Shown: piece by piece, positions 18,978-22,721 of the stretch | Layout of the letters: the number at the start of each line of letters is the position of its first letter | How positions within the stretch are numbered: the first letter of the stretch is position 1 | DNA from: Phycisphaeraceae bacterium | GTDB lineage: Bacteria; Planctomycetota; Phycisphaerae; Phycisphaerales; Phycisphaeraceae | DNA length: 64,000 nucleotides | Reading direction: 5' to 3' | Assembly (NCBI GenBank): GCA_028277745.1 | Contig: JANQFR010000013.1 | Location: forward strand, 1 to 64,000 | Notes under the pieces: generated by a model | Told to the model about the DNA's origin: nothing | The model's input: the letters and a program-made list of their open reading frames with translations, nothing else | Database searches by the model: none | Position numbers and translations under genes: made by a program

Positions 18978-20516
18978 CTAGGCCGGGGAGAGGCCGCGAT
19001 AGAGTTCCTGCACCCGCTGGGCCTGGTCGCGGCGCACCGACTCCAGCGTCAGCCGGGCGATCTGGAACCGCGGCTGCTCCTCGGGCACGATCCGGCAGTG
19101 CTCCTGGATCACGTTGTAGAGGAACTTGAACGCGTCGCGGGGCTGGTGCATCTGGTCGAGGGCGTCGATCAGCAGGTCCCGGCTGACATCGTTCTCGAAG
19201 AGGCTCGTGAGCGTGACCTCATTGGGCTCCCCGTCCATGCACGCCCTCAGCCGACGGGAGCAGAGGTCGTAGAGCATCGCGCCGGACCACGACAGCCGGT
19301 CGATCAGGTTCTGCTTGTCCAGCCGGGCCTCCTGGAAGAACCGGGCCGACTCGCGGTGGAGCATGTGCCGCAGCTCGATCGGCAGCAGCAGTTTGATCCC
19401 GATCCGGTCCTGCTTGAGGAACTTGTTGTCCATCATGGGCCAGAGGATCGCCTTCATGCGGTCGGCGTCGCCGCTGACGAGGGTCGGCTCGTCGAGGCGG
19501 TCGACCAGGACGATCAGCCCGGTGTAGCCGAACGCGTGGAGTACGTCGATCCATCGGCGGGTGAGCTGGTAACGGCTGTCGCTCTCGCCGGTGCGGGAGG
19601 TCTCGGGCGAGGGCAGGGGCTGGCGGAGCAGGTCGGAGCGGCCGAACCGGCCGAGCATTCCGGCGAGCTCGCCCGCGGTCCGGTTCACGGCGGGCATGTC
19701 CCGGGCGGCCTTGTGGGCCAGCCGCCACCGCGCCGCGTGGCGGTAGCCCCACAGGCCCCAGAGCAGCAGAGCGGCGGCGCCGGCGAGCCCCAGTGACGGG
19801 ATCAGCCACCAAGGCCGGCTGTCGGCGGCGACGAACGCCATGGTCAGCCCCAGCCCGACTGTAATCAGGCTGAGCAGGATGGCGCCGTAGAAGGTCGCCG
19901 CCTGAGGGACCTGATAGCCCAGCCGCAGTTTTTTCCACAGCCGTTCGAGGCGGTCCGCCGCCGATCCGTTGCGGGGTTGGTCATACAGCGCCGCGAGCAC
20001 AGCCAAGTCGACCCGCACCTGCCGCGGCACGTTCTTTTTGATGTGTTTGTCCACGTGCTCGGGCAGGGCGATGGGGTCTTCGCCGTCGGGCGATTCGTGG
20101 AGCAGGGCGTCGACGAGCCGGGTGACCGCGAGGCTGAGGATGGCGTCCTGATGGTCCTCCAGCCGGAAACCGGCGAGGACGGCGTCCGCCTTCTGCTTGT
20201 GGCGGCGGAGCAGGTTGTCGAGCATCGGGTTGAGGTCGTCATACGCGACGGTGAGCACCCGCCGGTCGGGGTGTTCGCGGTTGTGCTCGGCGACCTGCCG
20301 GGCGAGCTGGAGCCGGATCGCGGTTTTGCCGCTGCCCTTCTCGCCGAACACGATCGAGGTGGCGGGCTTGTCGATCTGGCCGAGCACCTTGGGGAAGTCG
20401 GGGTGGGTGGGCGAGCCGTCGATGAGCCGGCCGAACACCGGGTCGAGGCGGGCCTCCTCGGCGGCGAACGGGTTTTCCTTGACGTGGTGATGGGCGAGGA
20501 AGGTGTCGATGTTCAT
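18978..20516 (-). CDS. membrane-anchored P-loop ATPase of unknown role
   Basis: A 512-residue ATPase with a Walker A motif GEKGSGKT (residues 58-65) and a Walker B-like LIVLVDRLDE (334-343). Between them are two strong hydrophobic segments (about 208-230 and 237-258), so the ATPase core is interrupted by a membrane hairpin, the same layout as KAP NTPases, although the canonical KAP DDLDRC box is not present. The N-terminus HHVKENPFAAEEA resembles ExeA/STAND-type ATP-binding proteins. It is monocistronic, divergent from a small conserved gene. No function can be assigned; signalling or defence is possible but only an inference from the architecture. Confidence 0.75.
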   Translation of the reverse strand: MNIDTFLAHHHVKENPFAAEEARLDPVFGRLIDGSPTHPDFPKVLGQIDKPATSIVFGEKGSGKTAIRLQLARQVAEHNREHPDRRVLTVAYDDLNPMLDNLLRRHKQKADAVLAGFRLEDHQDAILSLAVTRLVDALLHESPDGEDPIALPEHVDKHIKKNVPRQVRVDLAVLAALYDQPRNGSAADRLERLWKKLRLGYQVPQAATFYGAILLSLITVGLGLTMAFVAADSRPWWLIPSLGLAGAAALLLWGLWGYRHAARWRLAHKAARDMPAVNRTAGELAGMLGRFGRSDLLRQPLPSPETSRTGESDSRYQLTRRWIDVLHAFGYTGLIVLVDRLDEPTLVSGDADRMKAILWPMMDNKFLKQDRIGIKLLLPIELRHMLHRESARFFQEARLDKQNLIDRLSWSGAMLYDLCSRRLRACMDGEPNEVTLTSLFENDVSRDLLIDALDQMHQPRDAFKFLYNVIQEHCRIVPEEQPRFQIARLTLESVRRDQAQRVQELYRGLSPA

Positions 20517-20592
20517 ATGGGGCCCCTCAGCGGCGGGCGTGGCGCGCGATGGACGTGTGCGGCGACGGCAGGATCATCATAAACTATTCGCC

Positions 20593-21012
20593 ATGACGCA
20601 GACGCCCCGTCCCGAGCCCGCCGCTGAGCCGCAGGCCCAGGCCCTCCAGCCCCCGCCAAAGCTCACGAAAACCACGCTCGAGGGCGCCGTTCCCCCGCTG
20701 ACCGACGAGGAGCAGCGCCGCAAGGCCATCGACATGGCGTTCGATTACCGCGGCGACGTGACGATCGATACCCGTGATGGGCGGAGCCTGACCGGCTACG
20801 TGTTCAACCGCGACGCCCAGGCGGCCGAGCCTTACGCCCGGATGATGCTGACCGAGGGCGGCCAGACCGTCATCAAGTATGCCGACGTGGCGAAGCTGAC
20901 CTTCAGCGGCAAGGACACCGCGGCCGGCAGGTCGTGGGAGTCGTGGCTCAAGCGTTACGTGGAGAAGAAAATGGCCGGGGAAGCGGCCAATATCGAGTCG
21001 GAATACCAGTAG
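20593..21012 (+). CDS. small conserved protein of unknown function
   Basis: A 139-residue protein. The first 40 residues are Pro/Ala/Gln-rich and probably disordered. Then follows a compact domain with RRKAIDMAFDYRGDVTI, DGRSLTGYVFNRD and IKYADVAKLTFSGKDTAAG, ending in a basic amphipathic tail SWLKRYVEKKMAG. The central part could be a small beta barrel, but I do not recognise a family. No Shine-Dalgarno is present; a TAAACT box ends 7 bases before the ATG, suggesting a leaderless mRNA. It lies immediately upstream of the trp leader and trpE. Confidence 0.7.
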   Translation: MTQTPRPEPAAEPQAQALQPPPKLTKTTLEGAVPPLTDEEQRRKAIDMAFDYRGDVTIDTRDGRSLTGYVFNRDAQAAEPYARMMLTEGGQTVIKYADVAKLTFSGKDTAAGRSWESWLKRYVEKKMAGEAANIESEYQ

Positions 21013-21028
21013 ACCTGGGGATGCCCGG

Positions 21029-21082
21029 ATGAACAGGACCCAATGCGGGAGATGGCTCTGGCGCGGCTGGCGATGGCGTTGA
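21029..21082 (+). CDS. trpL: probable trp leader peptide
   Basis: A 17-codon reading frame, ATG 21029 to TGA 21080-21082, encodes MNRTQCGRWLWRGWRWR with four Trp codons (positions 9, 11, 14 and 16). GGGG at 21017-21020 is a possible ribosome binding site. It lies 61 bases before the trpE start. A hairpin can form between 21060-21067 (GGCGC GGC) and 21086-21094 (GCC T GCGCC), overlapping two of the Trp codons, so a ribosome stalled for Trp-tRNA would open it. There is no T-tract, so control may act through translation or Rho. Too short for ordinary gene calling. Confidence 0.7.
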   Translation: MNRTQCGRWLWRGWRWR

Positions 21083-21143
21083 TCCGCCTGCGCCCGTTCG
21101 TTCCTGTCCATTCGCATTGACCCATTCATTCGGACCCCCGCCC

Positions 21144-22721
21144 ATGCCCTCCAACCTCCTTGACTTGCCCGCGTTCGAACAGATCGTCGCCGATACGTCG
21201 GCCGACGGCGGCGACCTGGTCGTGCCGGTCGTCCGTCGGCTCTTCAGCGACACCCTCACCCCCGTGCTCGCCTACCGCCGGCTCGTCCGGCCCGACGACC
21301 GCCTCGCGCCCAGCTTCCTGTTCGAATCCGTGATCGACGGCGACCGCGTCGGCCGGTACAGCTACCTCGGCGCCCAGCCCGTCGCGCAGATCGTCGCGTA
21401 CGGCCACGACGTCACGTTCACCGATTCACAGGAACCCGCCAACTCACGCCAATACCGTAGCGACGACCCGCTGACCGAGATGGACAAGCTGACCGCGGCG
21501 TGGCGGCTCGCCGACGTCCCCGGTCTGCCCGACTTCACCGGCGGCTGGGTCGGCTACGCGGGGTACGACACCGTGCGGTATCTCGAAGGCGAGAAGCTCG
21601 CCGACCCCCCGCCCGACGATCGGGGCCTGCCCGACCTGCACATGCAGCTCTACAACGACGTGGTCGCCTTCGACCACGTCCAGAAGACCGTGATGGTGAT
21701 CACGCACGTGAGGCCGTCGGCGTTCGCCTCGGCCCGGAAGGCGTACGACGCGGCCTGCGCGCGGCTGGATGAGCTGACCGATCGGTTGGTGACGCCGTCG
21801 GACCTCGAAGCCTCGCTCTCGCCGCGGCACGTCGATCTCAGCTCCCCCCCGCCGAGCCTGCCGCCGAGCAACATGGGCGTGGGCGGGTACCAACGCGCGG
21901 TTGAGCAGGTCAAGGAATATGTCAAGGCGGGCGACGCGTTCCAGGTCGTGCCGTCGCAGCGGTTCGAGCTGAAGACGCAGGCCGACCCGTTTGACATTTA
22001 CCGGGCGTTGCGGGTGGTGAACCCTTCGCCATACATGTTTTATCTGCAGATCGAGGGGGGGATGCTGGTGGGCTCGTCGCCGGAGATCCTCTGCCGGCTG
22101 CAGGGCGACGTGGTGACCAGCCGCCCGCTGGCGGGCACGCGTCGGCGGGGCCGGGACGCGGCGGAGGATGCGGCGCTGGAGGCCGAACTGCTGGCCGACC
22201 CGAAGGACCGGGCCGAGCACATCATGCTGGTGGACCTGCACCGCAACGACGTGGGCCGTGTGGCCGTGCCGGGGTCGGTCGAGCTGACCGAGGTGATGAT
22301 CGTCGAGCGGTACAGCCACGTGATGCACATCAGCTCGGAAGTGACCGGCAGGCTGCGCGAGGGGATGACGGGCTGGGACCTGCTGCGGGTGTCGCTGCCG
22401 GTGGGGACGGTGAGCGGGGCGCCGAAGGTGCGGGCGATGCAGATCATCGACGAGCTGGAGACGACGCGCCGCGGCCCGTACGCGGGGGCGGTGGGCTACG
22501 CCGACTTCGCGGGCGGGCTGGACATGGCGATCGCGCTGCGGACGATGGTGGTCAGGCCCGCCGACGCCGGGGGGTGGACGGTCCACATCCAGGCGGGCGG
22601 GGGCATCGTGTACGACAGCGACCCGGACGCCGAGCACCAGGAAACGGTCAACAAGGCGGCGGCGTTGGCCAAGGCGGTCGACGTCGCCGAGGCGATGTTC
22701 ACCGGAGGCGCCGAAGCATGA
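21144..22721 (+). CDS. trpE: anthranilate synthase component I
   Basis: A 525-residue TrpE that makes anthranilate from chorismate with ammonia from TrpG. The N-terminal regulatory part has SFLFESVIDGDRVGRYSYLG, equivalent to the Trp-binding LLES region. The catalytic domain carries LVGSSPEILCRL, RPLAGTRRRGRD, LVDLHRNDVGRV, LPVGTVSGAPKVRAMQIIDELE and RRGPYAGAVGYADF. ATG 21144 gives the normal start; no trpG is adjacent. A Trp-rich leader lies just upstream. The stop overlaps the start of the DUF402 gene (ATGA), so the two are coupled. Confidence 0.96.
   Translation: MPSNLLDLPAFEQIVADTSADGGDLVVPVVRRLFSDTLTPVLAYRRLVRPDDRLAPSFLFESVIDGDRVGRYSYLGAQPVAQIVAYGHDVTFTDSQEPANSRQYRSDDPLTEMDKLTAAWRLADVPGLPDFTGGWVGYAGYDTVRYLEGEKLADPPPDDRGLPDLHMQLYNDVVAFDHVQKTVMVITHVRPSAFASARKAYDAACARLDELTDRLVTPSDLEASLSPRHVDLSSPPPSLPPSNMGVGGYQRAVEQVKEYVKAGDAFQVVPSQRFELKTQADPFDIYRALRVVNPSPYMFYLQIEGGMLVGSSPEILCRLQGDVVTSRPLAGTRRRGRDAAEDAALEAELLADPKDRAEHIMLVDLHRNDVGRVAVPGSVELTEVMIVERYSHVMHISSEVTGRLREGMTGWDLLRVSLPVGTVSGAPKVRAMQIIDELETTRRGPYAGAVGYADFAGGLDMAIALRTMVVRPADAGGWTVHIQAGGGIVYDSDPDAEHQETVNKAAALAKAVDVAEAMFTGGAEA

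Follow-up and report, generated by a model that had tools for sequence, protein, structure and literature searches.

A Trp-rich leader upstream of trpE

A short reading frame with four Trp codons was found upstream of trpE in the window (the whole 64-kb stretch of DNA analyzed here), and judging from its sequence, 21029–21082 is very probably a functional Trp leader. About as likely as not is the further proposal that, as a cis-acting, Trp-sensing leader peptide, it would govern trpE through stalled ribosomes and that trpE translation is the step most probably affected. The frame (21029–21082, forward strand, stop codon included) was considered trpL-like and encodes MNRTQCGRWLWRGWRWR, comprising 17 codons from an ATG start. 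Its Trp codons are codons 9, 11, 14, and 16 (at 21053, 21059, 21068, and 21074), which are the proposed stall sites (21053–21076, forward strand). A Shine-Dalgarno-like GGGGA (21017–21021, forward strand) is located 7 nt 5′ of the leader ATG. The duplex energy was −5.5 kcal/mol at the leader vs. −3.2 kcal/mol at trpE, which has no strong Shine-Dalgarno sequence in the window genome.

The leader stop codon is separated by 61 nt (21083–21143, forward strand) from the ATG of trpE at 21144. The proposed regulated gene, trpE (21144–22721, forward strand), encodes anthranilate synthase component I, as indicated by a match to TIGR00564 at 561.3 bits (cut-off 517.7) together with PF00425 and PF04715. 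The trpD and trpB genes of this genome were located on other contigs. Directly upstream, 16 nt before the leader ATG, there is a small conserved uncharacterized gene (20593–21012, forward strand) that had no match in a Pfam and NCBIfam search, and its homologue also precedes trpE in many relatives. The only promoter-like box seen by inspection lies near 20577, before this small gene, and thus a longer transcript may carry the leader and trpE as its distal portion. The small gene is probably co-transcribed with them in the window genome. Within 20560–20595, the box TAAACTAT is very near the ATG (20593) of the small gene, and being so close, it may give rise to a leaderless mRNA. Similar boxes also precede trpE in relatives. 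On its divergent side, the trpE region is flanked by a P-loop ATPase gene (18978–20516, minus strand). Its product has sub-threshold likeness both to the Sll1717 ATPase family and to NF053860 (93 bits, cut-off 370), whose annotation is that of an anti-phage protein. The Rfam scan above the gathering score returned only tRNAs in the 64-kb window, and nothing at the trpE leaders tested.

A previous sequence-only reading of this DNA had described a 17-codon frame that contains four Trp codons and stops 61 nt short of trpE, and this description was confirmed. Four Trp in ten codons occurred in 0.025–0.03% of the dinucleotide shuffles of the 131-nt gap (P 0.0003), and of the 386 ATG frames of 8–40 codons that the window contains on its two strands, none but the leader reached this density; both results argue against chance. 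Upstream loci of trpE were collected from the family (49), other families of the order (40), elsewhere in the phylum (38) and a second collection (80); some were too short and were left out. They were scanned for ATG-started frames of 8–30 codons in which a stretch of ten codons holds three or more Trp. Six of 47 Phycisphaeraceae upstream regions passed, compared with a shuffle mean of 0.05 and a maximum of 1, and Trp was the sole amino acid of the 20 that stood out before trpE (z 10.8; the next was 2.9). No genome passed at trpE in the other families of the order (0/39) or elsewhere in the phylum (0/38). Three loci from actinobacterial records in the second collection (L095, L109, and L117) yielded trpL-like frames, which indicated that the scan detects expected leaders. 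A frame that is Trp-rich by chance and without function would fit the patchy distribution of the leader and its absence from the genus closest by TrpE identity. However, the uniqueness in the window, the shuffle result, the excess within the family and the lack of a comparable leader in the other families and the rest of the phylum make this explanation very unlikely.

Distribution of the leader among relatives

Trp-rich leaders preceded trpE in the window genome and in seven other Phycisphaeraceae genomes. The seven leaders were MDVRWWRDQVMWR (G013), MQLNRRSIRRWWRGWQA (G016), MHTRTRQVGDCWRGWRRDARAL (G017), MRNPTPPTRWACWRWPIG (G019), MNHKHAAYWQVYWRRWQS (G043), MKYMTTAYWQVYWRRWQS (G044), and MNPARRSMIWWP (G002). 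The distance from the leader stop codon to trpE ranged from 41 to 108 nt across the leader genomes. A W-R-x-W core was common to five of the eight leaders (window genome, G016, G017, G043, and G044), which at the sequence level suggests shared descent or shared constraint. In genomes G016, G017, and G019, −10-like boxes (TATAACAT and TATAAGAT) were located shortly 5′ of the leader.

A lack of conserved Trp codons in close relatives had been put forward as an outcome that would refute the leader, and this outcome was not observed: the codons recurred in eight genomes from five genera, but the distribution was patchy and the genus nearest by TrpE identity (G023–G028) contained no Trp leader. On the TrpE tree, the leader trait needed five changes, at least four of which were forced by well-supported branches. 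This indicated that the leader was gained or lost repeatedly.

In the nearest genus, a promoter-like box (TATAGACTAT) was closely followed by a hairpin-like element, ..CCCAAATCGGG..GGGCACAAAAGTT, that is conserved. The element was observed at loci L002, L004, L006, L042, and L048 and in a looser form at L003 and L052, about −130 to −60 before trpE, and is possibly a different trpE regulator. Genome G020 was without the Trp leader present in its genus mates G016, G017, and G019, and its trpE (L047, G020:C1:4181677-4183249) appeared as two separate matches, as if frame-broken, in a one-contig genome. Long inverted repeats were found just 5′ of trpE at six loci (L005, L007, L022, L024, L026, and L049; e.g., ACCACAGAGACACAGAG...CTCTGTGTCTCAGTGCCTCTGTGGT), and they are perhaps small mobile repeats or terminators.

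Other amino acid genes were scanned as well. In the eight leader genomes, no convincing Trp leader was found at trpB or at trpS, where one GTG-start frame with two Trp preceded the gene in G002. None was found at trpD across the family either, where frames with three Trp preceded the gene in G006 and G027. LTWWF peptides also occur upstream of trpD in G008 and G009, and they were rejected as candidates since they look like the end of an upstream coding frame. The ilvB genes of the eight leader genomes had no convincing branched-chain leader, and the His leader scan at hisG found none.

Predicted RNA folding and simulated ribosome stalling

The sequence-only reading had assigned the attenuation to a hairpin overlapping two of the Trp codons (21060–21067 with 21086–21094). 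On paper, these arms can form 8 bp with one bulged T. The predicted pair probability was 0.001–0.004 in all four contexts computed, and the hairpin was rejected as the working structure; the local fold around it was no better than shuffles (z −0.17). Alternative folds in which the Trp codons come close to the start of trpE were favored over it. Of the attenuation logic first proposed, the Trp leader was supported, but not its operation through this hairpin.

The fold favored in the ensemble comprised two elements, a long stem between the leader and the region near the trpE start and a local hairpin around the stop codon of the leader. The long stem consisted of 21025–21033 with 21125–21133, 21041–21047 with 21113–21119, and 21051–21055 with 21108–21112, and the pairs sampled from it had probabilities of 0.96–1.0. 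The 5′ side of this proposed sequestering stem (21025–21055, forward strand) extends from the leader start, which it covers, to the first Trp codon, which falls in 21051–21055. The last base of the 3′ side (21108–21133, forward strand) lies 10 nt before the trpE ATG.

Here, a mechanism of translational attenuation was proposed. When charged tRNA-Trp is ample, ribosomes would finish the leader and depart, and the freed leader segment (21025–21055) would pair with 26 nt located just 5′ of the trpE start (21108–21133), hiding the start. When charged tRNA-Trp is scarce, a ribosome would stall on the leader Trp codons and keep the pairing segment open; the start would thus be uncovered and trpE translated. 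We infer that the leader is translated, that tRNA-Trp is sensed and that control acts at this level.

The pairing of the leader with trpE and its opening by a stalled ribosome were supported by modeling. Simulated ribosome footprints were used to compute how much energy is needed to open the trpE start region (−18 to +9). The free RNA required 11.5 kcal/mol. A ribosome placed on the leader stop codon left this value at 10.2 kcal/mol, and one on Trp codon 9, 11, or 14 lowered it to 6.2–6.3 kcal/mol. The gain from stalling exceeded that of shuffles in the window genome (P 0.033) and in the eight leaders combined (P 0.0018), whereas the 31 leaderless relatives, tested at the distances of the window genome, gave a combined P of 0.40. 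This contrast favors translational attenuation; it was sensitive to the footprint and the window used, with P ranging from 0.001 to 0.29 over nine settings. Stalling had almost no effect in G044 and only a small one in G017 and G019. A plain leader-to-start duplex test gave P 0.017 in the leader genomes and P 6e-5 in the leaderless controls, several of which carry unrelated inverted repeats. Duplex energy was dropped as a discriminating test because the controls score too.

A leuA attenuator in the same genome

Upstream of leuA in the window genome (L265:1320-1482; G000:C24, leuA at 80204), there was a Leu-rich leader, MSMHFPILTADLGLLLSLELIVRAG, followed on its 3′ side by a terminator (ACGCCCTGTC-CGGCTCACCCGC-GACAGGGCGT) with the T-rich tail TTTTCTTTGA. 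The leader-stop region GCCGGAUAGGG and the 5′ terminator arm CCCUGUCCGGC form an 11-bp pairing. By its sequence, this pairing is a textbook antiterminator, and a ribosome positioned on the stop codon would keep it from forming. Compared with shuffles, the antiterminator pairing reached a combined P of 6e-16 over the 20 family loci with both leader and terminator, a value that overstates independence as the loci are related. At several positions of the stem, the pair types vary and the pairing is kept.

Of 30 family loci, 18 had a leader with at least four Leu in ten codons before leuA, where 1.4 were expected. In a sister family, a Leu-rich leader was present at all eight loci tested, and five of them had the matching terminator motif (CCCTGTC...GACAGGG plus a T-run). 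The attenuator was found at loci L260, L262, L264, L265, L290–L312, and L321–L332, and the leuA leaders had no Rfam match at the loci tested. The anatomy in the sequences is clearly that of a classical attenuator, conserved at leuA in both Phycisphaeraceae and the sister family.

A terminator was thus present at leuA and absent at trpE of the same genome, and this was counted in favor of a non-classical output at trpE. We tentatively propose, with more doubt than confidence, that two outputs exist in one genome, terminator-based at leuA and start sequestration at trpE, and that the trpE device was gained, lost or switched in its output several times in the family.

Terminators, Rho and the level of control

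No intrinsic terminator was detected on the forward strand between the leader and trpE in the window genome. The earlier statement that no T-run follows was correct, and its suggestion that control is translational or Rho-based was supported insofar as the lack of a terminator makes intrinsic termination improbable. By eye, no antiterminator partner for the leader stop-codon segment was seen in the trpE spacer, unlike at leuA. Among the five leader genomes scanned, only G043 and G044 had terminator-like sites, which were hairpins with T-rich tails 3′ of the Trp leader. Control in these two may be transcriptional, and the output may differ among genera.

Rho-dependent attenuation was considered as the leading alternative, and it is rather unlikely. 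When Trp is plentiful, the ribosome would leave at the stop codon, the spacer would load Rho, and transcription would end before trpE; stalling would alter coupling or exposure, and RNA polymerase would pass. The spacer, a possible Rho-loading site under this model, contains 46% C and 18% G without an intrinsic terminator, and a like argument was made for the terminator-free mycobacterial cys leaders (PMC1262725). The C-over-G skew before trpE was slightly higher in the leader genomes (P 0.047); however, leaderless relatives also have C-rich stretches at this position. Rho homologues are encoded, although none of the copies found in the window genome reaches the family cut-off. It is also not obvious in which direction control would run, as most of the spacer stays bare when a ribosome is stalled on the Trp codons. 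In the TIGR00767 search, full-score Rho was observed in six of seven relatives and none was found in the 95.6% complete assembly of the window genome; a second, more divergent Rho-like protein occurred in all eight genomes searched.

Classical transcription attenuation of the E. coli trpL type, which relies on an intrinsic terminator, would be in line with the plan of the leuA leader of the same genome, judged by anatomy, and with the terminator-like hairpins after the Trp leaders of G043 and G044. At trpE of the window genome, where no such site exists on the forward strand and the G-poor spacer offers little to build one, it is improbable.

The least probable explanation is that the leader acts only by reinitiation or coupling, as a ribosome antenna for a trpE that lacks a strong Shine-Dalgarno sequence, with incidental Trp codons: leader genes, including those of Planctomycetes, have been proposed to boost translation via short-distance reinitiation (PMC4833913), but the distances of 41–108 nt exceed the 10–11 nt peak of that study, and the Trp enrichment (z 10.8) is left unexplained.

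Comparison with known systems

A genome-wide attenuator screen from 2010 stated that, to the knowledge of its authors, leader peptides had not been shown beyond Proteobacteria and Actinobacteria before their own case in Firmicutes (PMC2965389). Our literature search, which covered few subscription journals, found no earlier description of an amino acid leader peptide in planctomycetes. If translational attenuation at trpE is true, ribosome-mediated amino acid sensing would extend to another deep bacterial branch, a terminator-free output (trpE) and a classical output (leuA) would coexist in one cell, and the switching between transcriptional and translational output in evolution would become testable. 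The leuA element is a well-conserved RNA and a candidate for a family model.

The trpE leader shares with E. coli trpL a short leader peptide, clustered Trp codons shortly 5′ of trpE and the logic of stalling. In contrast to trpL, there is neither an intrinsic terminator nor a 3:4 hairpin, what is controlled is probably how accessible the trpE start is, and trpE is separate from trpD and trpB. The device without a terminator thus fails the defining test of a classical transcription attenuator. In rhizobia, peTrpL precedes trpE(G). It likewise is a Trp leader peptide from a trp attenuator; however, the rhizobial system is a transcription attenuator whose peptide is also trans-acting (PMC7298713), and nothing suggests trans action here.

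The trp attenuators of Corynebacterium and Streptomyces share high GC and repeated UGG codons in their leaders, but they have GC-rich terminators followed by poly-U (PMC1262725), which are absent here. In the actinobacterial LEU element of leuA, the Leu codons pair with the Shine-Dalgarno box (PMC1262725). It resembles the fold predicted for trpE in that the regulatory codons pair with the region where translation of the controlled gene begins, while its Leu codons, conserved pseudoknot and different gene set it apart from the Trp leader (PMC1262725). The mycobacterial cys leaders have an amino acid-rich peptide, no obvious terminator and a pyrimidine-rich spacer as well; they contain Cys instead of Trp, and no pairing with the gene start was claimed for them (PMC1262725). 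Judged by analogy, the LEU element and these terminator-free cys leaders are the nearest analogues of the proposed trpE device.
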